NCBI RefSeq assembly: GCF_000974685.2
Contig: NZ_AP018738.1
Location: forward strand, 1,488,001-1,552,000
Source: Ferriphaselus amnicola
Lineage (GTDB): Bacteria; Pseudomonadota; Gammaproteobacteria; Burkholderiales; Gallionellaceae
Length of the DNA stretch: 64,000 nucleotides
Reading direction: 5' to 3'
Shown here one piece after another: positions 50,910 through 64,000 of this stretch (position 1 is its first letter; each line of letters begins with the position of its first letter). A model generated the notes under the pieces. That model saw only the letters and a program-made list of their open reading frames with translations, ran no database searches and was not told the origin of the DNA. A program made the translations under genes and the position numbers.

Positions 50910-53615
50910 TCAGTTGTGACTTCGTCGAGATATGCGATGCCGATCCCAACGTCGCATCCCCGCCTTTTCCATCTCGACCGCACCGAACACCAGCCCCCCA
51001 AACAGCAGAATGCGCCACCAAGCGGCAGACTCAATGGCCGCGGTACCGAACAGATGCTGCATCAGCGGCGCGTAGGTGAACAATAATTGCAACAATACGA
51101 CGATAACAATAGACAGCACAACCGGTCTGGATTGAGTAAAGCTAATCACACCGAACGATGACTCAAACAAGTGGCGGCAATTGAACAGATAGAATATCTC
51201 GCCCATGACCAATGCATTAACTGCTACGGTACGCGCCTCCTCAAGGCTGGCTCCACGCCCCAACTCCCAAAGAAAGAAACCCACGCCGCCCAACACCATC
51301 AGCGCAGACACCAGTACGATCCGCCAAAGCAAGAAGTGATCAAGCAACGGCGCACGCGGATCCTGCGGAGCACGGCACATCACACCACGTTCTGAAGACT
51401 CAAAGGCCAGCGCAAGCGACAAAGTAATCGCGGTCACCATGTTTACCCACAGAATCTGTACCGGAGTAATCGGCAAGGTCAACCCCATGAGAATGGCCGC
51501 GACAATGACCGCCGCCTCTCCGCCGCTAGTGGGCAAGATGAATACGATGGACTTCTTAAGGTTGTCATAAATAGTGCGCCCCTCCTCCACGGCCGCCGCA
51601 ATGGAGGCGAAATTATCGTCGGCCAGCACCATTTCGGCAGCTTCCTTGGCTGCTTCGGTGCCTTTCCCACCCATCGCCACCCCGACATCGGCACGCTTGA
51701 GCGCAGGAGCATCGTTCACGCCGTCGCCGGTCATCGCCACCACTTCGCCGTTAGCCTGCATAGCTGTCACCAGACGCAACTTGTGTTCGGGGCTGGACCG
51801 TGCGAACACATCCACATCGCGTACGGCTTGGCGCAACGCCTCATCGTCCATCGCATCGAGTTCGACACCGGTCAATGCCAGACCGTTGCCGATGCCTAGT
51901 TGGGCGGCGATGGCGCGCGCAGTGTCGGCATGGTCGCCGGTGATCATCTTCACGCGGATACCCGCAGCCTTGCAGTCGCGCACGGCTGAGATCGCCTCCT
52001 CGCGCGGCGGGTCACTGATGCCAACCATGCCCAACAACGTGAATCCCCCTTCCACATCAGCGAACCGCAATTCACGCTGGTCAACTTCTACAGATTTCAT
52101 CGCCAAGGCCAGCACGCGCTGTCCGCGTGCGCCGGTCTCGGCCATCTGCGCATGCCAGTAGGGCAAGTCCAGTGTCACATCTTCGCCGCTGCCGCGCTGC
52201 TGGTTGCACATCGCCAGCACTTGCTCCACCGCCCCCTTCACGAAAATAAAAGCGTGTCCGCTATGGTCGTGGTGCAGGGTAGCCATGAAGCGGTGCTCTG
52301 ACTCGAAGGGGATGTGGTCGGTACGCGGAAGCTCTTCATGTTCGAGAGCAGCATCCAATCCGGCTTTCAAAGCCAGCGGGATGAGTGCACCTTCGGTCGG
52401 ATCTCCCGCGATGTGCCAATGCCCTTCACCTTCGTTCAGGGCGGCATCATTGCAGAGCAGTCCTGCACGGAATAGGTCCAGCGTATCGGGATGTTCGGTG
52501 AAATCGGTCTCTTTTCCATCAATAGCAAAGCCACCATGTGGTGCATAACCGATACCGCTCACTTCAAATATGCTTGAAGCCGTGATCACGCGCTGCACGG
52601 TCATTTCGTTCTTGGTCAACGTACCGGTCTTGTCGCTACAGATGGTCGTCACCGCACCCAAGGATTCCACCGCAGGTAAACGCCTGACGATCGCACTGCG
52701 TTTTGCCATGCGCTGCACGCCGAGCGCAAGCGTGATGGTCAGCACGGCGGGAAGTCCTTCTGGGATCGCGGCCACCGCTAGACCGACCGCGGCAAAGAAC
52801 ATATCGGACCAGTTGTAGCCATGCACCCAAACGCCGAAAGCAAACGTCAATCCCGCCAGCAGTAAGATGGTGGTCGTGAGTTGTTTGCCGAAATGCGTCA
52901 TCTGCCGCAATAACGGGGTTTCCAGCACACCCACCCCGGCGATCAGGCTGCTGATGTGACCAATCTCGGTGGCAGTACCAATGGCGACGACTACACCGCG
53001 CGCTTGGCCATACACTACTAGTGTGCCGGAATACGCCATGCATGCCCGTTCACCCAGCACCGTCTGCGGATCCACAGCGGCAACTCCCTTCTCCACCGGT
53101 TCGGACTCACCGGTGAGTGTAGCCTCCTCAATCCGCAACTGACGCACCTCGACCAAGCGCAGATCGGCAGGCACCTTGTCACCGGAAGCCAGCAACACGA
53201 TGTCGCCCGTCACCAACTGGTGCGCCGGAACCTCCTGACGCCGCCCGCCGCGCAGCACCGTTGCATTCAGCGACAACATGTTGCGGATCGCGTCCAGTGC
53301 TCGCTCGGCACGCCCCTCCTGAATGACCCCGATGAGGGCATTGATGAACACTACGCTGACGATCACCCCACAATCGACCCAGTGGTCGAGCAAGGCGGTG
53401 ATCGTTGCGGCCCCAAGTAGCAGGTAGATCAGCACATTGTGGAATTGCCGAGAGAAGCGCCGTAGCCAGCCATCGCGCGAGGCTACCGGCAAGCGGTTGT
53501 GGCCAAAACGCTCTAATCGACGCGTAGCCTCGTCCGGCTCCAGGCCGGTGTGTGTCGAGGACAACGACGCAATTGTCTCGGCAGCTGAGCGAGCGTGCCA
53601 ATCATTGTTCGTCAT
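50910..53615 (-). CDS. P-type cation ATPase, Ca2+-transporting type
   Basis: A roughly 901-residue P2-type ATPase with an N-terminal cation-ATPase domain, the TGESEPV actuator motif, the phosphorylation motif DKTGT with Asp328, the PEGLPA sequence in membrane helix 4 that is typical of calcium pumps, and GDGVNDAPAL. It probably exports Ca2+ or a similar cation. The start at 53615 leaves 37 bases after the upstream antiporter; an ATG at 53660 would overlap that gene and is an alternative. Confidence 0.9.
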   Translation of the reverse strand: MTNNDWHARSAAETIASLSSTHTGLEPDEATRRLERFGHNRLPVASRDGWLRRFSRQFHNVLIYLLLGAATITALLDHWVDCGVIVSVVFINALIGVIQEGRAERALDAIRNMLSLNATVLRGGRRQEVPAHQLVTGDIVLLASGDKVPADLRLVEVRQLRIEEATLTGESEPVEKGVAAVDPQTVLGERACMAYSGTLVVYGQARGVVVAIGTATEIGHISSLIAGVGVLETPLLRQMTHFGKQLTTTILLLAGLTFAFGVWVHGYNWSDMFFAAVGLAVAAIPEGLPAVLTITLALGVQRMAKRSAIVRRLPAVESLGAVTTICSDKTGTLTKNEMTVQRVITASSIFEVSGIGYAPHGGFAIDGKETDFTEHPDTLDLFRAGLLCNDAALNEGEGHWHIAGDPTEGALIPLALKAGLDAALEHEELPRTDHIPFESEHRFMATLHHDHSGHAFIFVKGAVEQVLAMCNQQRGSGEDVTLDLPYWHAQMAETGARGQRVLALAMKSVEVDQRELRFADVEGGFTLLGMVGISDPPREEAISAVRDCKAAGIRVKMITGDHADTARAIAAQLGIGNGLALTGVELDAMDDEALRQAVRDVDVFARSSPEHKLRLVTAMQANGEVVAMTGDGVNDAPALKRADVGVAMGGKGTEAAKEAAEMVLADDNFASIAAAVEEGRTIYDNLKKSIVFILPTSGGEAAVIVAAILMGLTLPITPVQILWVNMVTAITLSLALAFESSERGVMCRAPQDPRAPLLDHFLLWRIVLVSALMVLGGVGFFLWELGRGASLEEARTVAVNALVMGEIFYLFNCRHLFESSFGVISFTQSRPVVLSIVIVVLLQLLFTYAPLMQHLFGTAAIESAAWWRILLFGGLVFGAVEMEKAGMRRWDRHRISRRSHN

Positions 53616-53652
53616 AATAGGTGCGCCATACTCAACACTATTCTTCCGGTAT

Positions 53653-54870
53653 TTAAGCATTGCGGCTTCGCCCGTAGAACCATTTGAGCATAAAGGGCGG
53701 GGAAACAGTGGTGAGTGCAATTACGATGAGTAATGCCGCATATAGCTCACCGCTCAAAATAGCCTGACTGAATCCTAGTTGCGCAAAAATCAACCCAACT
53801 TCACCTCTCGGGATCATCGACAGTCCGATGGCAATTTGGTGCTGACGAGATTCGCGAATGAAAAAACCTGAAGCAAACTTTCCAAGCAAGGCAACCATCA
53901 ACAATAGCCCAGCCAATTGCCAGATGAATGCCTCCCCCCAATCCACCGTACTCAGGTTGAGCGACACACCAACCATCACAAAAAATAACGGTGAAAACGT
54001 ATGGATTAGAGGACGCATCTGTTCCTCAAGGCGATGTGCCAATTTCGGGCTGGGCTTGAATTCAATCATCTGACCTTTGCCCATCCACAGCCTGAAGCCA
54101 AAATGCTGACTGAATGCCAATCCAGCCGCAAATCCTCCCATGATTTCTGGCGCACCAACCGCATGCGCCAACCAAGAAAATAGCAAAATCAGTGACAGCG
54201 CCATAGTCAGTAACAACCCTGGCGTAGCGGCGCGCTGATCAAAGTGGTCAATCACCATCGAGGCCAGCTTCGCCACCAACGGTGCCAGCAGCATGAACAG
54301 CAAAATGTAGAGCCCAACCTCACCTATCGCCTGAATCGATACCTGCTTTTCCACTGCAAACTGGTACAACATTGCAAGTGCAAGCACGCCCAGAATATCA
54401 TCCAGCACTGCCGCGCCAATCACGATCTGCGCCTCGTCTGACTGGCGCTTACCGAGATCATCCAGCACGCGTACCGTGATACCGATGCTGGTGGCCGTCA
54501 ACGTTCCACCAATGAACAGCGCAGTCAACTCGGGCAGTCCGAACAGTAAAGCGCTTACCCCATACCCCAGCACAAACGGCAGTATAAATCCGAGTAGCGC
54601 CACCACCACCGGCTTGCTTCCAGATCGCGCCAATCGTGATAGGTCGGTATCCATCCCCACTTCGAATAAAAGCAGGATGATGCCGATCTCGGCCAGTAAT
54701 TTCATGGTGGTGTCGGGTGCCACCCAACCGAGCAGCGAAGGGCCGATTAGCAAGCCAGCTAGCAGCTCTCCGATCACCGATGGAATACCGAAGCGCGCAA
54801 CAGTCTCGGACAGCAGGCGCGCAGCGATTAAAATGATTGCAAGAAAGAGAAAGAATTGATGCAGCTCCAT
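53653..54870 (-). CDS. Cation:proton antiporter, CPA2 family
   Basis: A 405-residue membrane protein with about 12 helices of the monovalent cation:proton antiporter-2 (Kef-like) family, without a C-terminal RCK domain. The motifs GIPSVIGELLAGLLIGPSLLG and GFILPFVLGY are characteristic. Na+/H+ or K+/H+ exchange is likely. It lies 28 bases downstream of the SulP gene and is followed by the P-ATPase gene. Confidence 0.88.
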   Translation of the reverse strand: MELHQFFLFLAIILIAARLLSETVARFGIPSVIGELLAGLLIGPSLLGWVAPDTTMKLLAEIGIILLLFEVGMDTDLSRLARSGSKPVVVALLGFILPFVLGYGVSALLFGLPELTALFIGGTLTATSIGITVRVLDDLGKRQSDEAQIVIGAAVLDDILGVLALAMLYQFAVEKQVSIQAIGEVGLYILLFMLLAPLVAKLASMVIDHFDQRAATPGLLLTMALSLILLFSWLAHAVGAPEIMGGFAAGLAFSQHFGFRLWMGKGQMIEFKPSPKLAHRLEEQMRPLIHTFSPLFFVMVGVSLNLSTVDWGEAFIWQLAGLLLMVALLGKFASGFFIRESRQHQIAIGLSMIPRGEVGLIFAQLGFSQAILSGELYAALLIVIALTTVSPPFMLKWFYGRSRNA

Positions 54871-54897
54871 GGCGATACTCCCAGAGAATGATGGCGA

Positions 54898-56406
54898 TCA
54901 GCCCAAGCGGTTATCCGCAGGATGGTAGTGCGGGTCTTCCAGCACGTTCACTTCCACCATGCCACGGGCTTTGCCGAGTAGCTCCAAACAATCTGGACTT
55001 AGGTGGCGCAGGTGAAGTTTCTTGCCTTGTTGAGTATAGCGCTCGGCCAATTGATCAATAGCTTCCAGTCCGGAATGGTCTTTAACGCGCGCGTGCCTGA
55101 AATCAATCACCACGTCTTCCGGGTCATCCTTCGGCGTGAACAGGTTCAGGAAATTCTGCGACGAGGCGAAGAATAGCGAACCGTGCAAATCGTACACCTT
55201 CCAGCCGTGCTCCTCGGTGGTCACGTGCACCTCCATGCTCTTGGCGTGTTCCCAGGCGAAGGCCAGCGCCGAAATGATGATGCCGACGATGACCGCGATG
55301 GCGAGATCGGTCAGTACAGTGACCACGGCGACGGTGATGCCCACCACGATGTCGGTGCGCGGCACCTTGCCGAACAGGTTGAAGCTGCCCCACTCGAAGG
55401 TCTTCTCCGACACCACGAACATCAGGCCGATCAGCGCGGCCAGCGGGATCATCTCGATCCAGCTCGATGCGAACAAAATGAAGCTCAGCAGGAACAGCGC
55501 GGCAGCGATGCCGGACAAATTTTTCACCGCGCCGTTGGTGACGTTGATCATGCTCTGTCCGATCATCGCGCAGCCACCCATGCCGCCGAAGAAGCCGGTG
55601 ACCACGTTGGCCACACCCTGGCCGATGCTGGCACGGTTGGGTTTGCCGCGCGTGTCGGTCATGGTGTCGATCAGGTTCAGCGTCAGCAGCGATTCGATCA
55701 GGCCGATGGCGGCGAGGATCACGCTGTAGGGGAAGATGATCGTGAGCGTCTCCCAGTTCAGCGGCACCTCGGGGAGGTGGAATTGCGGCAGGCCGCCCGC
55801 GATGGAGGCCATGTCGCCCACGGTCTTGGTGTCGATGCCGGCGAAGATCACCAGCGCCGAGGTGGCGACGATGGCGGCCAGCGTGGACGGCAATACTTTG
55901 GTGAAACGCGGCAGGATGTAGATGATCGCCATGGTCAGCGCGATCAGGCCCAGCATGGTGTAGAGCGGCGCGCCTTGCATCCAGTCGCCGTCGGGCGTTT
56001 TGAAGTGGCTCAACTGCGCCAGAAAGATCACGATGGCCAGTCCGTTGACGAAGCCCAGCATCACCGGGTGCGGCACCATGCGGATGAACTTGCCGAGCTT
56101 GCCCAGCCCGAAGCCGATCTGCAACACGCCCATCAGCACCACGGTGGCGAACAGATATTCCACGCCGTGCGTCACCACCAGCGCCACCATCACCACCGCA
56201 AGCGCGCCGGTCGCGCCCGAGATCATGCCGGGGCGGCCGCCGATCAGCGAAGTGATGAGACCCACCATAAAGGCAGCGTACAGACCGACCAGCGGATGCA
56301 CCTGCGCCACCAACGCGAAGGCGATGGCTTCGGGCACGAGGGCGAGCGCGACGGTGAGGCCGCTAAGGAGATTCGTTTTGGTTTCGGAGAAATTGCGGAT
56401 GCTCAT
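54898..56406 (-). CDS. SulP family anion transporter with STAS domain
   Basis: A 502-residue inner-membrane transporter. About 12 helices carry the SulP signatures (ALALVPEAIAFALVAQVHPLVGLYAAF, QSMINVTNGA), followed by a C-terminal STAS domain (about 415-490). SulP proteins carry sulfate, bicarbonate or other anions; which one applies here is not clear. The start at 56406 has a GGGAG site; a longer frame extends upstream into the leader. Its leader holds several hairpins (see 56419-56522). Confidence 0.9.
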   Translation of the reverse strand: MSIRNFSETKTNLLSGLTVALALVPEAIAFALVAQVHPLVGLYAAFMVGLITSLIGGRPGMISGATGALAVVMVALVVTHGVEYLFATVVLMGVLQIGFGLGKLGKFIRMVPHPVMLGFVNGLAIVIFLAQLSHFKTPDGDWMQGAPLYTMLGLIALTMAIIYILPRFTKVLPSTLAAIVATSALVIFAGIDTKTVGDMASIAGGLPQFHLPEVPLNWETLTIIFPYSVILAAIGLIESLLTLNLIDTMTDTRGKPNRASIGQGVANVVTGFFGGMGGCAMIGQSMINVTNGAVKNLSGIAAALFLLSFILFASSWIEMIPLAALIGLMFVVSEKTFEWGSFNLFGKVPRTDIVVGITVAVVTVLTDLAIAVIVGIIISALAFAWEHAKSMEVHVTTEEHGWKVYDLHGSLFFASSQNFLNLFTPKDDPEDVVIDFRHARVKDHSGLEAIDQLAERYTQQGKKLHLRHLSPDCLELLGKARGMVEVNVLEDPHYHPADNRLG

Positions 56407-56418
56407 TGAGGTGCTCCC

Positions 56419-56522
56419 AAAAAAAAACGGCCCTGCTCGCAGATGAGTGGCGAGCATGCGAATTCATACTGAGAATGTTGTCGGCCACCGAGCGGCCGGC
56501 AACTAAGTAACTTTGAAGTTAC
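56419..56522 (-). promoter_or_regulatory. Structured leader of the SulP gene
   Basis: In the minus-strand leader three hairpins follow one another: stems 56507-56512/56517-56522, 56477-56486/56494-56503 (one mismatch) and 56434-56440/56450-56456. The last is followed, 6 bases on, by nine T residues (56419-56427) just before the ribosome-binding site. This could be an attenuator or riboswitch-like element. Confidence 0.4.
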
Positions 56523-56566
56523 ATCGGAAGAGACAAGGACGGATGAATCGTGGCGGGAATTATAGC

Positions 56567-57457
56567 CTAAGGCCACACCCGCGCTGGGAACTCGGATACC
56601 AGCAACGAGCGCTGGGCGATTTTTACGCGGCCCTCGCTCTGCTCAAACTCAACCAGAATCGCAGAAAACAACTTATCCTTGGTAGCCAAACGCATGCGGT
56701 AGTCAACGACATATCGCAGCGTAAGCTCTATCCAGTTTGCATCGAAACTCAGCGTGACCACAACATCGAGACTGGAGTCCTCTGCGCGGTGATGACGCAC
56801 AAACGAAGCCCACAATTCACGCGCGGTAGCCATTGTATCGGACTGCACCCTTGCACCAACCTCGTACACAATGCTTCGCGCCAGACGGTGGTCGCAATCG
56901 GTGCGTACCGGCACCACGATCTCGTCCCATAGAAAGGGGAAATCTACACTGTAGTTCTGCACCTGTTCGCGCAGCACGATGTTGTTGGGGAGGTACACCA
57001 CTCGGCCGTTGTACAGGTCGGATTTCACCCAGTCGCCGCATTCCATCACGGTGGTGGTGAGTGGGCTGATATCCATCACGTCGCCCATCACGCCGCCAAG
57101 CTTGATGCGGTCGCCCGGCTTGTACAGATTTCCGAAGGTGACCACCAGCCAGCCGAATAGGCTCTGAATTAGCTCGCGCAGGGCGAAACCGACACCGACA
57201 CCGAGCAGGCCAATCAGCACAGGCAGATTGGATAGCTGATTGCTGAAGATGGCAATGGCGGCTAGCAGGCCCAGCACATAACCAGCAAGACTGAGCGCCT
57301 TGCGCGTCTTGTACCGCAGTTCCTTGTTCTTGATGTTGTTGTTGGCGAACATCTGTACGAACCTCACCAGCAGCAGGATGAAGAGCAAACTAAGCATCAG
57401 CCCCAGCAGTTTGCCGAACATAGGATGCGCAGTCAGATCATGGAGTATCTCGGTCAT
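56567..57457 (-). CDS. MscS family mechanosensitive channel
   Basis: A 296-residue small-conductance mechanosensitive channel. Three hydrophobic segments are followed by the pore/beta domain, with GVGVGFALRELIQSLFGWLV (TM3) and KPGDRIKLGGVMGDVMDISPLTTTV. It would release solutes on hypo-osmotic shock. It lies 18 bases downstream of a CPA1 antiporter gene on the same strand. Confidence 0.92.
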   Translation of the reverse strand: MTEILHDLTAHPMFGKLLGLMLSLLFILLLVRFVQMFANNNIKNKELRYKTRKALSLAGYVLGLLAAIAIFSNQLSNLPVLIGLLGVGVGFALRELIQSLFGWLVVTFGNLYKPGDRIKLGGVMGDVMDISPLTTTVMECGDWVKSDLYNGRVVYLPNNIVLREQVQNYSVDFPFLWDEIVVPVRTDCDHRLARSIVYEVGARVQSDTMATARELWASFVRHHRAEDSSLDVVVTLSFDANWIELTLRYVVDYRMRLATKDKLFSAILVEFEQSEGRVKIAQRSLLVSEFPARVWP

Positions 57458-57475
57458 GGTTGAGTCGGCCTGTGA

Positions 57476-58864
57476 TTAGTGGTGGCCATGCTCGGCCAGC
57501 TTCTCATCGCGAAAGATTTCCTTGTTTCGTCCAATGATGAGCAGTAGCGCGCTAGAGTAGGAAAAGGTAGACAGCATGATAACGCCGATGACCACCGCTT
57601 TGAACATTTCCAGATGCGGGTAGTTGGCGGGGATCATGGTGATCATCACGATGGACAGCCCCCCCTTGATGCCCGCGAAAGTCAGCACGCTCCACCAGAG
57701 CAGGTTGATGTCGACCATCTTCACGGTGCGATTTGCGATGGCGGCGAATAATCCCATCATCACACCCCGTATCACCGTGGTGGCGAGGAACATTACTAAT
57801 ATCTCCGTCCTGTACTGCCAGAGCAGTTTGAGATCGATCATCTCCGCCATGGCAATGAACAGGATGGTATTGGCAACTAGGGCCAGCAACTGGATGTCTT
57901 CCTTAGTGCGAAGATGGCGATCACGTTCGGCGAGGGTGGCGCGCAATCGGTCCAGCGTCTTGCCAATCAGGTTGGAGGAAGAGTTCTTGCTCATGGCCTC
58001 GCGCTGCAAAGCGGCTTCATCATGCTCGATGCGGCGCTCTTCCTCGTCGACCGCCTTCATCATCACGTGGTTAACCGTGATCACGGCGAAGATCACGGCG
58101 AGGATGCCGGACAGGTGCAGATGCGAATGCCCGCCCAGCAGATTGAGGAACACATAGAAATGCTCGGCAATCTCGAATGCGCCGTAACCGGCGATGATCA
58201 ACACCATCATCTCGGCAAAGCGGTTGTGCGTGGATTTCATCAGCACCAGCCCGAGGAAGCCGACTAGCATGCCGACCGCGACCGAGCTCAGGATCACTTC
58301 CGCGCTAATGCCCAGCACATAAGCGGCGGTGATCTCGTTGCCGCCCAGCGCATACAGGCCGACGAACACAAAAGCGATCAGCGCCGTGGCATCGTTCAGC
58401 AGGCTCTCGCCCTCGGCTAGGATCTTCAGGCGATGCGGCAGTTCGAATTTGGAGAAGATGCTCACCACCGACACTGGGTCAGTCGCCAGCACCATGGCGA
58501 ACAACACGATCACTGCGGCAGTCGACAGATGATAGTCGCCGAACAGCCAGTCCGAGATAGCCAGCGCGGTCAGCACCGACAGGATGATCGAGACAACCGC
58601 CAAATACAGCAGGCTCCACGCATGCTCCTTCAGGTCGGCAACCTTGAGCTCCAGCGAGTCAGAAATCAGCAACACCGGCAGAAGGAAGATGACTAAGGTG
58701 GCGAATTGCTCAGCATCGCCAGTAAGCACCGGTATCTGACTGAACACATAGTGAGCGACAAAAGAAAGCAGAATCAATCCCAACGGAGAAGGCACGCGTA
58801 GCTTTTCCTCCAACTGCAACGCTAGGAAAAGAATGGTCGCTATCGTCAGAAGTGAAGTAATCAT
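57476..58864 (-). CDS. Cation:proton antiporter, CPA1 (NhaP-like) family
   Basis: A 462-residue membrane antiporter with about 12 helices, showing the CPA1 pattern ATDPVSVVSIFSKF and GESLLNDATALIAFVFVG, which holds the ion-binding Asp pair. A charged cytoplasmic loop lies near residues 270-320. Na+ or K+/H+ exchange is expected. It precedes an MscS gene by 18 bases. Confidence 0.93.
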   Translation of the reverse strand: MITSLLTIATILFLALQLEEKLRVPSPLGLILLSFVAHYVFSQIPVLTGDAEQFATLVIFLLPVLLISDSLELKVADLKEHAWSLLYLAVVSIILSVLTALAISDWLFGDYHLSTAAVIVLFAMVLATDPVSVVSIFSKFELPHRLKILAEGESLLNDATALIAFVFVGLYALGGNEITAAYVLGISAEVILSSVAVGMLVGFLGLVLMKSTHNRFAEMMVLIIAGYGAFEIAEHFYVFLNLLGGHSHLHLSGILAVIFAVITVNHVMMKAVDEEERRIEHDEAALQREAMSKNSSSNLIGKTLDRLRATLAERDRHLRTKEDIQLLALVANTILFIAMAEMIDLKLLWQYRTEILVMFLATTVIRGVMMGLFAAIANRTVKMVDINLLWWSVLTFAGIKGGLSIVMITMIPANYPHLEMFKAVVIGVIMLSTFSYSSALLLIIGRNKEIFRDEKLAEHGHH

Positions 58865-58916
58865 GCTTGCTTTCTAGAAAATAAGTTCATGGTATCACCC
58901 TACATCCGCCGCCAGT

Positions 58917-60185
58917 TCATGACTCTGGCGGCGGAACAAAATCAGGTGCCTTCATGGTTTCGCCCAGTGGCTTACCTAGTACGCGCGAGTAGAAGTTTCG
59001 CACAGTAGAGATGGGGTAGGCCATCACCAGCAGCGCAGTGAACGTAATGCTGATCAGTACGACCATGTAAGTGACATCGCGTATCGTTTCCCCGCCAGCC
59101 ACTCCGTATTGCAAGGGCAATGATGCCAGCACGGCAGCAGCCAATCCTTTGGGAGCCATCATCGAGATAATTGCTGCATCCCTCAGGTCATAGTTCGGGT
59201 CACGAAATATATAGCGAGTCAGAATCAGTCTCATTGCGAACACCAGCAACACCATCAGCCCCGCAGTAATTGCAAGATGTACCGCACCGAAGTGAATGGA
59301 AATGCCCAGATACACGAAAAAATAGGTCTTCAACAGGAACACCGCTTCGCGGTAAAAAGTAATGTCCATCTCGTTCAATGGCTCTATCTTCCGATCTAGT
59401 CGCTGAATGCGGTGCAGACCAAGCTTCTCGAAATTATTCAGCGTGATGCCCAGCGCCAGCGCCGCGATCGCCCCAGAGAAACCCAGCAATTCGGTCAACC
59501 CATAAACGATGAAAACATAGGCCAGCGTGGACGAGATTGTGTTGGAAAAATCGCGCACTCGCCCCAACACTAGCAACCAGCCTACCCCACCAAGCACACC
59601 GATGACTGCCGCGAAAATCAGTGCGGAAAGCACACTGCCGATCAGACGGCCTGGCTCTACACCACCTTGCGTAGATATTTGCAACAGAGCGAACACCCCT
59701 ACGATGCACAGTACGTCAGTCAGAGCTGACTCCAGCACCAGCACAATCGCGGGCCTCTCCCCTATACTCAGTGCTGCTACCATGGGGATGACAACTGCCG
59801 AAGAGGTACCTCCCAGCGTAACCCCCAACATGGTAGATGGAAGCAGGGATAGGCCCAGCGTAAAGTAGGCGATCAGTATAACGATGAGCGTCGTCAACCC
59901 GAAGCATACCAAGCTCAATTTCCCTGTGGATGCAAGAGACTTGCCTAGCACGCCTAAATTCAGCGAGGTTCCACTCTCAAACAGAATCACCACCAGCGCG
60001 ATAGTCGCGATGAGGGAACCGATCTTGCCAAAATCTGCTGGCGTAACAACACCCATCAGAGGTCCGATCACGATGCCAATCAGCATCAAGACCAGCACAT
60101 CTGGTATGTTTGTCCGACGAAACTGCAATGAAAGGAAATGGGCAAAGAAGACCATCAGGCCAATGACCAGAATAGTGGTGGACAT
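58917..60185 (-). CDS. Cation:proton antiporter, CPA2 type, second copy
   Basis: A 422-residue membrane protein with about 12 helices, with FRRTNIPDVLVLMLIGIVIGP and VILFESGTSLNLGVLGKSL at the N-terminal half, GGTSSAVVIPM in the middle and no RCK domain. It differs clearly from the antiporter at 53653-54870. It is the upstream gene of a run of five minus-strand transport genes. Confidence 0.9.
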   Translation of the reverse strand: MSTTILVIGLMVFFAHFLSLQFRRTNIPDVLVLMLIGIVIGPLMGVVTPADFGKIGSLIATIALVVILFESGTSLNLGVLGKSLASTGKLSLVCFGLTTLIVILIAYFTLGLSLLPSTMLGVTLGGTSSAVVIPMVAALSIGERPAIVLVLESALTDVLCIVGVFALLQISTQGGVEPGRLIGSVLSALIFAAVIGVLGGVGWLLVLGRVRDFSNTISSTLAYVFIVYGLTELLGFSGAIAALALGITLNNFEKLGLHRIQRLDRKIEPLNEMDITFYREAVFLLKTYFFVYLGISIHFGAVHLAITAGLMVLLVFAMRLILTRYIFRDPNYDLRDAAIISMMAPKGLAAAVLASLPLQYGVAGGETIRDVTYMVVLISITFTALLVMAYPISTVRNFYSRVLGKPLGETMKAPDFVPPPES

Positions 60186-60261
60186 GATTTCTCCTGTTCT
60201 ATCTTCGTCGGATTATACATGCCAGCAATTTTGCGCCAGACCTTTGGAACACCCTACGTAG

Positions 60262-60497
60262 GGCCCCTTCGTTTAGAGTTGCGCTGAATCACGCGCCGTT
60301 CGGTGAGTGACAAATCGCATGCGCACCCCGGCACTACCATTCACATCCTCGGCACCGAGCACATCTCATACATGCAGTTTTTCGATCAAACTCCTTTGGA
60401 TACTCTTCTTCACCACAAAGGCAATATGATAGGCAAACGCGACATCATGCTGATCAGCGATCATCTCAGCCTATTCCGAGGAGGATTTGGCGCCTGA
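60262..60497 (+). pseudogene. Decayed partial copy of the dihydrodipicolinate-reductase-like gene
   Basis: This stretch aligns with codons about 29-105 of the intact gene at 61571. The parallels are clear: RRS at the start, HPGT, then FDQTPLDTL against FEQAPVDAL, and KRDIMLIS against KRGIMLVS. Relative to the intact copy it has a TGG-to-TGA nonsense change (ELR-stop-ITRRS against DLRWIARRS), a 24-base deletion after TTCACCACAAAG, and a one-base insertion that shifts the frame before TATTCCGAGGAGGATTTG. It cannot make the protein. The first 28 codons and the second half are missing. Confidence 0.85.
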
Positions 60498-60658
60498 AAG
60501 GTGTCAACAATTAGACACCACTCTTTAAATCCATCCTACCAATTAGCAATATCCTATTGAATCTGTTTAGGATAACTAGAACTAGCACAAAGCGCGCTAG
60601 GAGCGAACCTTCCCGATTCTGCAGCTTGATGAGTTAGAATTCCCCCAATGCACCGAAA

Positions 60659-61540
60659 ATGAGCAATACCATGATCTCAAACTTTCTCCACACTCCTAAA
60701 GAGTTACTACATGTTGGCATCATCCTGCTCCTGGCTTGGTTGCTGATGCAAGTGGGATTGCGCTTGGTTCAGTTATTTCGTAGTTACATGTACACACGAG
60801 CAGACTCCGCCGAAGACAAGCGCCGAATCGAAACCTTAGCCCGAGTTTTCCACCACATCATCACCGTTATCATCACTCTGGTCGCAGGCATGCTCGCGCT
60901 CAGTGAACTTGGCATCTCGATTGCCCCCATTCTGGGTGCAGCAGGTGTCGTCGGTATTGCTGTCGGCTTTGGTGCACAAAGCCTGATCAAGGACTATTTC
61001 AATGGTTTTTTCATCCTGATTGAGAATCAAATCCGACAGGGTGATGTTGTCGAGGTGGGAGGAAAAACTGGCGTTGTGGAGGACATTACGCTCCGCTACG
61101 TCAGTCTGCGTGATTACGAAGGTAGCGTCCACTACATTCCAAACGGTCTGATTACTACAGTCACTAACAAGTCACGCGGCTTTGCTTACGCTGTTATTGA
61201 TGTCAGCGTTGCTTACCGCGAAAGCATTGAAGAGGTCTATGACGTTATACGTGAGGTTTCAGCGCGATTACGTGTTGATTCGTTGATAGGCGAGAAAATT
61301 CTGGAAGATATCGAGATTGCTGGGGTACAAGACTGGGCGGATTCGGCCATTGTGCTACGTTGTCGCTTCAAGACGGTTGCTCTTGAGCAATGGTGCGTGC
61401 GTCGTGAGTTTCTCAAGTGCCTCAAGATTGCTTTCGACGTGCATGGCATCGAAATACCTTATCCCCACCTCACCCTCTACGCTGGCACGGACAAGCAAGG
61501 GAACACCAGCCCATTCCGTATAGTTCGACAGGATAGATAG
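60659..61540 (+). CDS. MscS family mechanosensitive channel, second copy
   Basis: A 293-residue channel with the complete MscS pattern: ITLVAGMLALSELGISIAPILGAAGVVGIAVGFGAQSLIKDYFNG forms the pore helix region, then RQGDVVEVGGKTGVVEDITLRYVSLRDYEG. It is more like larger MscS/YbiO-type proteins than the copy at 56567. It lies 30 bases upstream of the DapB-like gene. The start is ATG at 60659; a second ATG lies four codons later. Confidence 0.92.
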   Translation: MSNTMISNFLHTPKELLHVGIILLLAWLLMQVGLRLVQLFRSYMYTRADSAEDKRRIETLARVFHHIITVIITLVAGMLALSELGISIAPILGAAGVVGIAVGFGAQSLIKDYFNGFFILIENQIRQGDVVEVGGKTGVVEDITLRYVSLRDYEGSVHYIPNGLITTVTNKSRGFAYAVIDVSVAYRESIEEVYDVIREVSARLRVDSLIGEKILEDIEIAGVQDWADSAIVLRCRFKTVALEQWCVRREFLKCLKIAFDVHGIEIPYPHLTLYAGTDKQGNTSPFRIVRQDR

Positions 61541-61570
61541 ACAAGCATCGACATTAAGGAGAAACATATT

Positions 61571-62326
61571 ATGCCGCCACAAATATCCATTGGTCTCATC
61601 GGTTACGGCAAAGCAGGACAAGCAGTAGCTAACGTTCTGAGCCAAGACCCCCGATTTGACCTGCGCTGGATCGCACGTCGCTCAACCATGGACCATGAAA
61701 GTCATCATCCCGGAACAGCCGTACCTATTGTCGGCATTGAGCAAACTCCATACCCGCAGCTGTTCGAGCAAGCCCCTGTGGATGCTCTGGTTGACTTCTC
61801 TTCACCACAAAGCATTCATAAGTACGGCGATGAGATAAGCAAGCGCGGCATCATGCTGGTCAGCGCTATCTCCGCCTACTCCGAAGACGATTTGACCTAT
61901 GCTCGGGAACTGGGTCAGCGAACACGTGTATTGTGCTCACCCAATATCACTCTGGGCATTAATTTCCTGATTCTGGCTGCAAAACTTCTACACAAGATCG
62001 CCCCATTTGCCGATGTAGAGATCGTAGAGCAACATTTCAGGGAAAAGCCAGAGGTCTCAGGCACAGCACGCAAGATTGCCGAAACGCTAGAAGTCGATGG
62101 CGAATGCATCACCTCGTTGCGACTAGGAGGCATCGTCGGGCATCACGAAGTGATTTTTGGTTTCCCTCATCAGACGGTACGCCTCACGCATGACTCCATC
62201 CGACGCGAGGCATTCGGCACGGGAGCTGCCTTTGCACTTGAACAACTATCACAGCTAGGGAATGGCTACTATTGCTTTGATGACATTTTATTTAAGTTGA
62301 TGCGTACCCAATTATTAAAAGGCTGA
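61571..62326 (+). CDS. Dihydrodipicolinate-reductase-like protein (DapB family, altered active site)
   Basis: A 251-residue Rossmann protein. The NAD(P)-binding motif is GYGKAGQA, and the C-terminal domain keeps HHEVIFGFPHQTVRLTHDS as in DapB. In true DapB the catalytic loop is HHxxKxDAPSGTA; here the same place reads His155-Phe156-Arg-Glu-Lys159, then VSGTA, so the second His is Phe and the DAP triplet is reduced. It may use another substrate or serve as a nucleotide sensor. It lies between an MscS gene and an NhaD gene, not in a lysine context. Confidence 0.78.
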   Translation: MPPQISIGLIGYGKAGQAVANVLSQDPRFDLRWIARRSTMDHESHHPGTAVPIVGIEQTPYPQLFEQAPVDALVDFSSPQSIHKYGDEISKRGIMLVSAISAYSEDDLTYARELGQRTRVLCSPNITLGINFLILAAKLLHKIAPFADVEIVEQHFREKPEVSGTARKIAETLEVDGECITSLRLGGIVGHHEVIFGFPHQTVRLTHDSIRREAFGTGAAFALEQLSQLGNGYYCFDDILFKLMRTQLLKG

Positions 62327-62934
62327 GCCCCCAATTACCGTCCAAAAGGTCTATAACTTAGCATTGCGCCAGCCCTGAATACGACGAATGAAAAGCTCGT
62401 CGCACCACTCCAACCAATTTGGCCTGTGTATCTTTCTGCTCGGCTAGAGTCTGTCGGGAATGCGTCCACTACCCTAGAAATATGCCCATTGTTCAAAACG
62501 CTTCTCGGAGATTTTCAGCGTATCCCCTATCCCATGCGGCAGCCACAGCCACTGGCAGCTTTGAGATTTGGTTGCCCCCTGAGTCTGCCGCACCACGGAT
62601 TGCGAGTCAAAGTCACTCCCGACCTTCATGTCGGGTAAACCACACTCAGTCAGCATATCGCCTAGGGGTAACGTTGCTGCATAGTTGGACATCACTTCCA
62701 TCACTGCTCCCTGGCCCAATTTCCGCGTATCCGAAGTGATAAGCAATCCCTTTTTGCTACGCAAGGCACACTATTTGCTCCTCACCTTTGCACAGACTGC
62801 GAGCGACTAATTCCCTGTGTTAGCATACCGACCAACGTTTCGTTTAGATACAGTGATGTCCAGCCCAACAATCCACGCCTCACTCACGCATATCCTTTCC
62901 GCTTCAACCTCTAGCTCACCCATGGATCAATGAC
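62327..62934. other. Gap of 608 bases without an assignable gene
   Basis: The stretch between the DapB-like gene and nhaD holds no recognised gene. A 96-codon frame on the minus strand (62474-62764) is open but I cannot match it to a family. A small CCCGAC/GTCGGG hairpin near 62617 is the only other visible structure. It may be decayed sequence, as the pseudogene at 60262 shows that this locus has lost genes. Confidence 0.5.
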
Positions 62935-64000
62935 ATGCTTATTTCTCTGATTGTCATATTTATCATCGCTTATGTAGCCATCGCACTTGAACACCCACTA
63001 AAAATCAACAAAGCCGCTCCAGCTCTGATCGGTGCTGGATTGTTGTGGACGATTTATGCCTTATCGGTCAGCGATGCTCATCTGGTTGGCGAGCAACTAG
63101 GCGAGTCAGTCATGGCGACCGCACAAATCGTGTTTTTTCTGATGGGTGCGATGACCATTGTCGAGGTCGTCGATGCTCATAATGGCTTCGATATCATTAC
63201 TCGTCGCATCGCAACGACCCGACTGTCCAGTCTGATGTGGCTGGTAGGGTTTGTGACATTTTCCCTTAGTGCGATACTCGACAATCTGACTACAACCATT
63301 GTGATGATTTCGCTCATGCGCAAACTGCTGGGCAAACATGAAGACCGACTGTTCTTTGCCGGCATTATCGTTATTGCGGCGAATTCTGGTGGCGCTTGGT
63401 CCCCCATCGGTGATGTCACTACCACTATGTTGTGGATTGGCGGCCAGATCACCAGTATCGCCATCATTAAGGGCGTGCTACTGCCCTCGCTTGCCAGCCT
63501 GATAGTACCTTTGGCCATCACCGCCTATCTTCTGCGTGGGCGACCAGTAATTGCCCCCGGACATGTCCACGGTGAAACCCAGTCACACGCTTCCATGTTC
63601 GCGCGCAACTTAGTGTTTTTCACAGGCTTGGGCATTCTGGTGGCTGTACCGGCCTTCAAGACGGTAACGCATCTCCCCCCTTTCATGGGCATCCTGTTCG
63701 GCTTAGGCATCTTGTGGCTAGTGGCTGATCTGGTGCACCGAAATCGGGACAATGACTCAAAGACTCACCTAACTCTGGTTCATGCCCTCAGCAAAATCGA
63801 CATGGGATCGCTGGTATTCTTTATTGGGATTTTGCTGTCGGTGGCGACCTTAGAACATACCAACATTCTTACTTCACTAGCACAGTGGTTAGATCACAGT
63901 CTTGGCAGGCAAGACCTGATTGTGATGCTGATCGGAATCGCTAGTGCCGTGGTGGACAATGTACCTCTGGTTGCCGCTTCAATGGGCATGTATAGCTTGG
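62935..64000 (+). CDS. nhaD: NhaD-type Na+/H+ antiporter (3' end beyond the window)
   Basis: The frame starts at ATG 62935 and runs open to the window edge, so at least 355 residues are encoded and the end is missing. The first helix is LISLIVIFIIAYVAIALEHP, followed by FFLMGAMTIVEVVDAH, AILDNLTTTIVMISL, AANSGGAWSPIGDVTT and ASAVVDNVPLVAAS, the repeated Asp/Asn-containing motifs of NhaD. NhaD exchanges Na+ or Li+ for protons. It extends the antiporter group of this island. No terminator or promoter was identified in the preceding gap. Confidence 0.93.
   Translation, partial: MLISLIVIFIIAYVAIALEHPLKINKAAPALIGAGLLWTIYALSVSDAHLVGEQLGESVMATAQIVFFLMGAMTIVEVVDAHNGFDIITRRIATTRLSSLMWLVGFVTFSLSAILDNLTTTIVMISLMRKLLGKHEDRLFFAGIIVIAANSGGAWSPIGDVTTTMLWIGGQITSIAIIKGVLLPSLASLIVPLAITAYLLRGRPVIAPGHVHGETQSHASMFARNLVFFTGLGILVAVPAFKTVTHLPPFMGILFGLGILWLVADLVHRNRDNDSKTHLTLVHALSKIDMGSLVFFIGILLSVATLEHTNILTSLAQWLDHSLGRQDLIVMLIGIASAVVDNVPLVAASMGMYSL

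Follow-up and report, generated by a model that had tools for sequence, protein, structure and literature searches.

A DapB-like gene at the end of a run of ion-transport genes

The window, a 64,000-nucleotide stretch of the Ferriphaselus amnicola genome, carries near its right end a gene (61571–62326, + strand) for a DapB-like reductase of 251 amino acids with the active-site loop EQHFREKPEV-SGT, as judged from Pfam, NCBIfam and alignments. Its reading frame starts with ATG and is preceded by AAGGAG. Only 30 bp upstream on the same strand lies a gene for an MscS-type mechanosensitive channel (60659–61540, +; Pfam), and this short gap and common orientation suggest that the two genes are probably co-transcribed. 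The MscS protein belongs to a cluster (c5) whose members also adjoin the DapB-like gene in relatives.

Further upstream, a Na+/H+ exchanger-family gene (58917–60185, −; PF00999) encodes a 422-residue protein whose homologs are divergent neighbours of the DapB-like gene in many Gallionellaceae loci. It is followed by a second Na+/H+ exchanger gene (57476–58864, −; PF00999), whose best NCBIfam match, a_cpa1, is below its cut-off, a second MscS-type channel gene (56567–57457, −; Pfam), a gene for a SulP-family anion transporter with a STAS domain (54898–56457, −; Pfam), a CPA2-like cation:proton antiporter gene (53653–54870, −; PF00999, by Pfam and NCBIfam) and a P-type cation-transporting ATPase gene (50910–53720, −; Pfam). 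Thus, the run of ion transporters noted in the preliminary description indeed extends from 50910 to 61540, and the next annotated gene to the right encodes a CitMHS-family transporter (62935–64000, +), which is cut by the window end and has 427 residues in L052. Over 60000–64000, including the MscS, DapB-like and CitMHS genes, the G+C content is about 0.49–0.52 per kb, compared to a window mean of 0.554, and a recent acquisition of this segment is possible.

A dead copy of the gene, also noted previously, was found between the exchanger and MscS genes (60270–60458, +). This fragment matches residues 28–98 at 44% identity and, in another comparison, residues 28–99 at 48% with one TGA. Because it lies where many Gallionellaceae have an intact DapB-like gene divergent from the exchanger, its decay suggests that an older exchanger-linked copy was lost in the window while the MscS-linked copy persists.

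The protein has a DapB fold with a conserved, altered active-site loop

The DapB fold assigned earlier was confirmed by Pfam, with DapB_C (74.3 bits) and DapB_N (40.5 bits) both above cut-off. These were the sole Pfam matches, and the flavodoxin-like fold of KefF-type quinone reductases was not found among them. The score against the dapB equivalog model TIGR00036 was 96.3 bits, below its cut-off of 122. The best matches among solved structures are dihydrodipicolinate reductases, the closest by sequence being that of Thermotoga maritima (1VM6), which shares the DapB_N/DapB_C two-domain architecture. The window protein keeps the catalytic His and Lys, the SGT loop, the APN/SPN motif and the VGxH motif of DapB. 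In the alignment, the family has lost an excursion of about 20 residues relative to canonical DapBs, and the long C-terminal excursion is absent from both the window protein and 1VM6. Such proteins are currently labelled in databases as dihydrodipicolinate reductase C-terminal domain protein, and Pfam alone would assign the family to lysine synthesis.

The loop differs from that of the canonical DapB encoded in the same genome, EAHHRHKVDAPSGT, in that HH is replaced by HF and the DAP stretch is shorter by one residue, in agreement with the preliminary description. A scan of genome contigs yielded 459 relatives. Among the best 80 of them, all 80 loci encode the HF loop and retain the catalytic residues His and Lys, with the consensus E-Q-H-F-[RK]-x-K-x-[ED]-[VIM]-S-G-T; thus, HFxxKx[ED][VIM]-SGT takes the place of the canonical HHxxKxDAPSGT throughout this set. 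A wider alignment of 36 rows, reaching down to 45% identity, has H155, F156, K159, S163, G164 and T165 in every row. As the same loop with its Phe recurs in all of these loci and rows, the alteration is not a chance change, and the invariance of these residues indicates that selection keeps an active site. Compared to canonical DapBs, the family also shows GxGKAG instead of GxxGRMG and SAISAY or TAVSxY instead of GTTGF, with HFREKPEV-SGT replacing HHRHKVDAPSGT.

In E. coli DapB numbering, we take H159 and K163 to be the catalytic residues, which are retained in the family as H155 and K159, and H160, presumably a carboxylate ligand, is a Phe in the DapB-like family. In the cofactor region, the family has IARR and canonical DapBs have ALEH or ALER. 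In the family, no acidic residue follows the second strand, which suggests that NADPH may be the preferred cofactor. The loop change by itself is no proof of a new substrate, since Arabidopsis dihydrodipicolinate reductases (DHDPRs), in which one of the five 2,6-PDC ligands of the E. coli enzyme is not conserved, are still DHDPR enzymes, as assayed together with DHDPS (PMC10203105).

The family occurs in addition to a canonical dapB

As the preliminary description had proposed to check, a canonical dapB was looked for elsewhere in the 2.72-Mb, single-contig genome containing the window, and one carrying HHRHKVDAPSGT was found at C1:2353815–2354615. Among 42 genomes carrying the DapB-like gene, 41 encode a canonical DapB elsewhere (144–162 bits). 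In the one exception (G007), the gene next to dapB, which from its sequence we take to be bamE-like, is missing as well, and three other tested genomes have both genes; as the neighbour is also absent, an assembly gap is likely, and a true loss of canonical DapB in G007 was rejected. With the canonical enzyme encoded elsewhere in 41 of 42 genomes, the DapB-like gene is not the housekeeping gene for lysine and diaminopimelate synthesis.

The DapB-like gene was found in 16 of 100 genomes (its own included) at 49–100% identity, in one of these (G016) as two pieces on two contigs, and three further genomes (G050, G024 and G057) contain short or broken pieces only. The best 80 of the 459 relatives come from Gallionellaceae, Comamonadaceae (Rhodoferax, Malikia and others), Aquabacterium, Azonexus, Nitrotoga and Methylobacter, among others. 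Outside its own genome, even sampling at E ≤ 1e-40 detected the gene in none of 368 genomes of the class and in one of 397 genomes of the phylum, and in the family of genome G079 it occurs in 9 of 199 genomes, that central genome included. A second subgroup, with a Thiothrix plasmid copy among its members, consists of more distant relatives sharing 45–49% identity with the window protein. In a quick tree of 97 rows, in which 36 of 94 inner branches are poorly supported, the family is monophyletic and separate from seven canonical DapBs.

Two possible vehicles were considered. A viral origin was rejected, as the nine pattern matches in a scan of viral contigs included no relative of the DapB-like protein. 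Plasmid carriage was likewise rejected: of 20 matching plasmid records, only the Thiothrix one (44.5% identical) was seen to carry the family loop, and the other 19 score 24–30% identity, a range also found for canonical DapBs.

Ion-transport genes adjoin the gene in most loci tabulated, with changing partners

Gene neighbourhoods were tabulated for 81 loci, comprising the best 80 of the 459 relatives and the window. Calls based on the longest open reading frame recovered the target gene in 58 of 83 loci plus the window and missed it in many high-G+C loci, so they were replaced by codon-usage gene calls with the target gene forced. An ion gene was defined as a member of a CLC, Na+/H+ exchanger, MscS, Na/Ca exchanger, PF07399 antiporter or P-type ATPase cluster.

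By this definition, an ion gene is directly adjacent in 62 of the 81 loci and within two genes in 66; after dereplication, the figures are 46 and 48 of 61 loci. The neighbours of homologs with the altered loop, whose tabulation the preliminary description had suggested, are therefore not random. Ion genes account for 63 of 238 genes within two places of the target, compared to 8 of 339 genes 6–10.5 kb away (odds ratio 14.9; Fisher p 9e-19), although the loci share ancestry and the p value ignores shared descent, so that the odds ratio does not amount to a corrected probability. After 20 near-duplicate loci among the 81 and one 96-residue reading frame (62477–62764 of the window) were left out, Pfam identified among 121 immediate neighbours 27 CLC, 26 MarR, 12 exchanger, 10 MscS, 3 E1-E2 ATPase and 3 DUF389 proteins. 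Among 94 far genes, there were two CLC and two E1-E2 ATPase genes, and exchanger and MscS were not among the 25 families listed. At least one of the near E1-E2 ATPases, at L130, is of the heavy-metal type. Fluoride-type CLC was rejected as an identity for the CLC-cluster proteins, 36 of 39 of which contain GREGP and 37 of 39 GSGIP. No recognised dap gene was found among the neighbours scanned against Pfam.

The partners alternate among CLC, three Na+/H+ exchanger families, MscS and P-type ATPase. On a tree of 90 rows, at least 12 changes are needed for the CLC link, at least 11 for the exchanger link and at least 12 for the MscS link, and in 19 rows none of the genes up to two places away carries an ion label; the labels of some distant rows come from separate inspection of their neighbours, that of L148 being assigned by likeness to L147. 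At L046 and, in the same order, at the closely related L145, the gene is flanked by a CitMHS-like gene (below cut-off) and a Na+/H+ exchanger gene; it lies beside a PF07399 antiporter and Usp at L146, and beside Usp and MscS at L147 and, in the same order, L148. Four of nine distant members (L144, L149, L150 and L151) show no ion gene, and L144 and L149 end near a contig edge. The Thiothrix plasmid member, 45% identical, lies between genes for Usp and a P-type ATPase, with SulP, a Ca/Na antiporter, NhaD and a cation:proton antiporter within 6 kb. In seven loci, six from Gallionellaceae or beta/gamma MAGs and one from Methylobacter, a sucrose-phosphate-synthase-like gene (cluster c12) is found less than 10 kb away. 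In Azonexaceae, a protein of about 430–450 residues without a Pfam match at E 0.001 (cluster c83; L118:6752–8047 and L131:10875–12233) is encoded beside the gene.

In Burkholderiales, a MarR gene and a palindromic operator suggest a link to osmotic functions

In many Burkholderiales loci, such as L078, L098 and L105, the DapB-like gene is paired with a MarR regulator gene and lies downstream of the palindrome TACATTTGnnCAAATGTA, which often occurs in tandem. An exact TACATT-N6-AATGTA, again often in tandem, precedes the gene in 20 of the 81 loci (best 80 of 459 plus the window), compared to a maximum of 2 in ten shuffles, and allowing up to two mismatches raises the number to 37. Across the same set, a MarR gene lies within two genes of the target in 33 of the 37 loci with the operator but in only 13 of the 44 without it. 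With at most one mismatch, 40 sites fall within 300 bp upstream of the gene and 11 in the remaining 1.41 Mb of sequence. The linked MarR protein is predicted to bind the palindrome. At L098, L100 and L088, more operator-like sites are present 1.6–2.1 kb from the gene, beyond the CLC gene, near the 3' end of CLC or CLC-Usp, with no obvious promoter.

Whole-genome searches of 18 genomes revealed 20 exact sites, 17 of them in front of a DapB-like gene, and 44 sites matching TACATTTGnnCAAATGTA with up to two mismatches, compared to 2 for a reversed control. Of the 44 sites, 28 are within 2.2 kb of a DapB-like gene. All 16 off-locus sites were inspected, and Pfam support was obtained for the genes named here. 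Five precede genes for MscS and compatible-solute synthesis, for Usp and a P-type ATPase, or for a second MarR. At L182 and L186, the operator lies between divergent MscS and sucrose-phosphate synthase genes; at L153/L173, it precedes an orthologous MscS gene followed by a trehalose-phosphate-synthase-like gene (PDB match at 1e-89). The MscS proteins encoded at these loci are 64–74% identical. At L188, the operator is located between the genes for Usp and a P-type cation ATPase, and at L189 immediately upstream of a second gene from this MarR family. Three of the 16 sites (L172, L193 and L157, the last ahead of a sigma factor gene) are intergenic but adjoin neither ion nor osmotic genes, and six lie inside genes.

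At L181 and L183, the operator lies inside an amine-oxidase operon of DAO, 2Fe-2S and FAD oxidoreductase genes, between its first two genes; at L181, where the gene finder missed the Fer2 gene, the location of the operator was deduced from the genes on either side. DAO/2Fe-2S/FAD genes are also found directly downstream of the DapB-like and MarR genes at L076 and L102.

The window differs in this respect. The best operator-like site before its DapB-like gene has five mismatches, the closest protein in the genome to the linked MarR is 26% identical (E 1.5e-4), and the search for sucrose-phosphate synthase in this genome returned glycosyltransferase-like pieces only. As this genome has neither the linked MarR nor the operator, the regulon, whose evidence comes from other families, reaches the window copy by inference only.

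Proposed function of the DapB-like protein

These comparisons lead us to consider, at a probability of roughly 55%, that the DapB-like protein is an active, stress-regulated NAD(P)H reductase other than the housekeeping DapB, with a remodelled substrate pocket and a role in the osmotic and ion-stress response. This reading is the most likely because the catalytic residues are invariant, a separate DapB is present, control is common with osmotic genes, and the partners are too varied for a subunit. In the proposed mechanism, a soluble DapB-fold enzyme, probably with a changed substrate, would be produced as part of the osmotic and ion-stress response. As candidate substrate we propose a small carboxylated imine that differs from the DapB substrate or goes beyond it, and the enzyme may help to make, recycle or signal a stress metabolite and would not gate a channel by itself. 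The window copy beside MscS would have the same role.

Among more specific forms of such chemistry, a tentative one, to which we give a rather low probability, is that the protein may have evolved from DapB into an NADPH-dependent imine reductase for the formation or removal of a compatible solute, e.g., a proline- or pipecolate-type imino acid, or of the small-molecule signal read by the linked MarR. A substrate with one carboxylate would fit the loss of one carboxylate-binding His, and amine–imine chemistry would fit the operator in the DAO/2Fe-2S/FAD operon and the occurrence of such genes after the DapB-like and MarR genes. If true, it would couple the redox state of the cell to one regulon that combines Cl−/H+ and Na+/H+ exchange with pressure-release channels and the synthesis of sucrose- or trehalose-type solutes.

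The preliminary description had interpreted the protein as a redox-coupling accessory of ion transport, comparable to KefF with KefC, or else as a different reductase. Its fold, its conserved altered loop, the second dapB and the non-random link to ion transporters all stand, but a dedicated redox subunit of one antiporter is no longer the leading interpretation; the different reductase is the better fit, with an invariant catalytic His and Lys and switching partners. A KefF-like accessory would sense a nicotinamide nucleotide and bind and gate the neighbouring channel or antiporter, as the single transporters directly adjacent in 62 of the 81 loci might suggest. Moreover, for the 422-residue window exchanger, Pfam detects the membrane domain PF00999 (residues 13–386) alone and no cytoplasmic nucleotide-binding domain. 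However, the partner changes many times among unrelated membrane proteins, which disfavours a dedicated subunit; a docking domain common to the partners was not seen, the active site is invariant, and shared transcriptional control accounts for the adjacency without contact. We therefore regard such an accessory as quite unlikely.

Another reading, that of a stress-inducible DapB isozyme which still reduces the lysine-pathway intermediate and so supplies more lysine or diaminopimelate under salt stress, is one we hold improbable, if a little less so. It accords with the retained catalytic His, Lys and SGT loop and with the Arabidopsis DHDPRs discussed above (PMC10203105), and some dapB genes are under Na+ riboswitches, which the authors explain by osmotic stress (PMC9337991). 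Against it are the canonical dapB in 41 of 42 genomes, the TIGR00036 score below cut-off, the change of the second His to Phe with a shorter loop in all 80 loci (best 80 of 459), and the lack of recognised dap genes among the Pfam-scanned neighbours. Least probable of all, in our view very unlikely, is that the gene is a passenger of mobile ion-transport islands, co-inherited without a common function. The patchy distribution (0 of 368 class and 1 of 397 phylum genomes beyond its own), the decayed copy at 60270–60458 with the broken pieces in three other genomes, and the plasmid-borne Thiothrix member would be expected of a passenger, but not the conserved active site, the operator shared with unlinked osmotic genes or the falling off of ion genes within 6 kb.

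Taken together, the genomic evidence points the family to salt, osmotic and ion homeostasis and away from lysine synthesis. If the stress-regulated reductase reading is true, a metabolic enzyme joins the channels, exchangers and compatible-solute synthesis of a stress regulon, which would offer a route to its substrate, and the Burkholderiales loci provide a testable MarR operator and gene set.

Comparison with known systems

Among the top-ranked matches listed in the literature searches, no title or abstract concerned the DapB-like family or its ion-channel link, which is no proof of absence. The nearest published case is the Na+ riboswitch on some dapB genes, in which a DapB-type gene is likewise under ion-stress control (PMC9337991). 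There, the gene product is described as dihydrodipicolinate reductase and the switch is RNA, whereas here a paralogue is concerned, in relatives with a palindromic DNA operator and a MarR regulator. Riboswitch control of the DapB-like gene was rejected: the six Rfam matches in the window are rRNA and tRNA at 5.8–11.4 kb, and a glycine riboswitch, far from the gene, was the sole match in the loci of five relatives.

KefF is a flavodoxin-fold quinone reductase with a fixed partner, KefC, and partner antiporters of this type carry a KTN domain. The DapB-like protein resembles it in being a soluble oxidoreductase that depends on a nucleotide and has an ion-transporter gene beside its own, but differs in its DapB fold and its changing partners, and the window exchanger matches PF00999 alone, with no KTN domain matched. 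Different from canonical DapB, the family occurs in addition to a canonical dapB. In plants, CRR1 is reportedly a DapB-like protein of the chloroplast NDH complex and would be another DapB paralogue with a role outside lysine synthesis. CRR1 is, however, a plant chloroplast protein tied to NDH, whereas the DapB-like family described here is linked by gene neighbourhood to ion channels.
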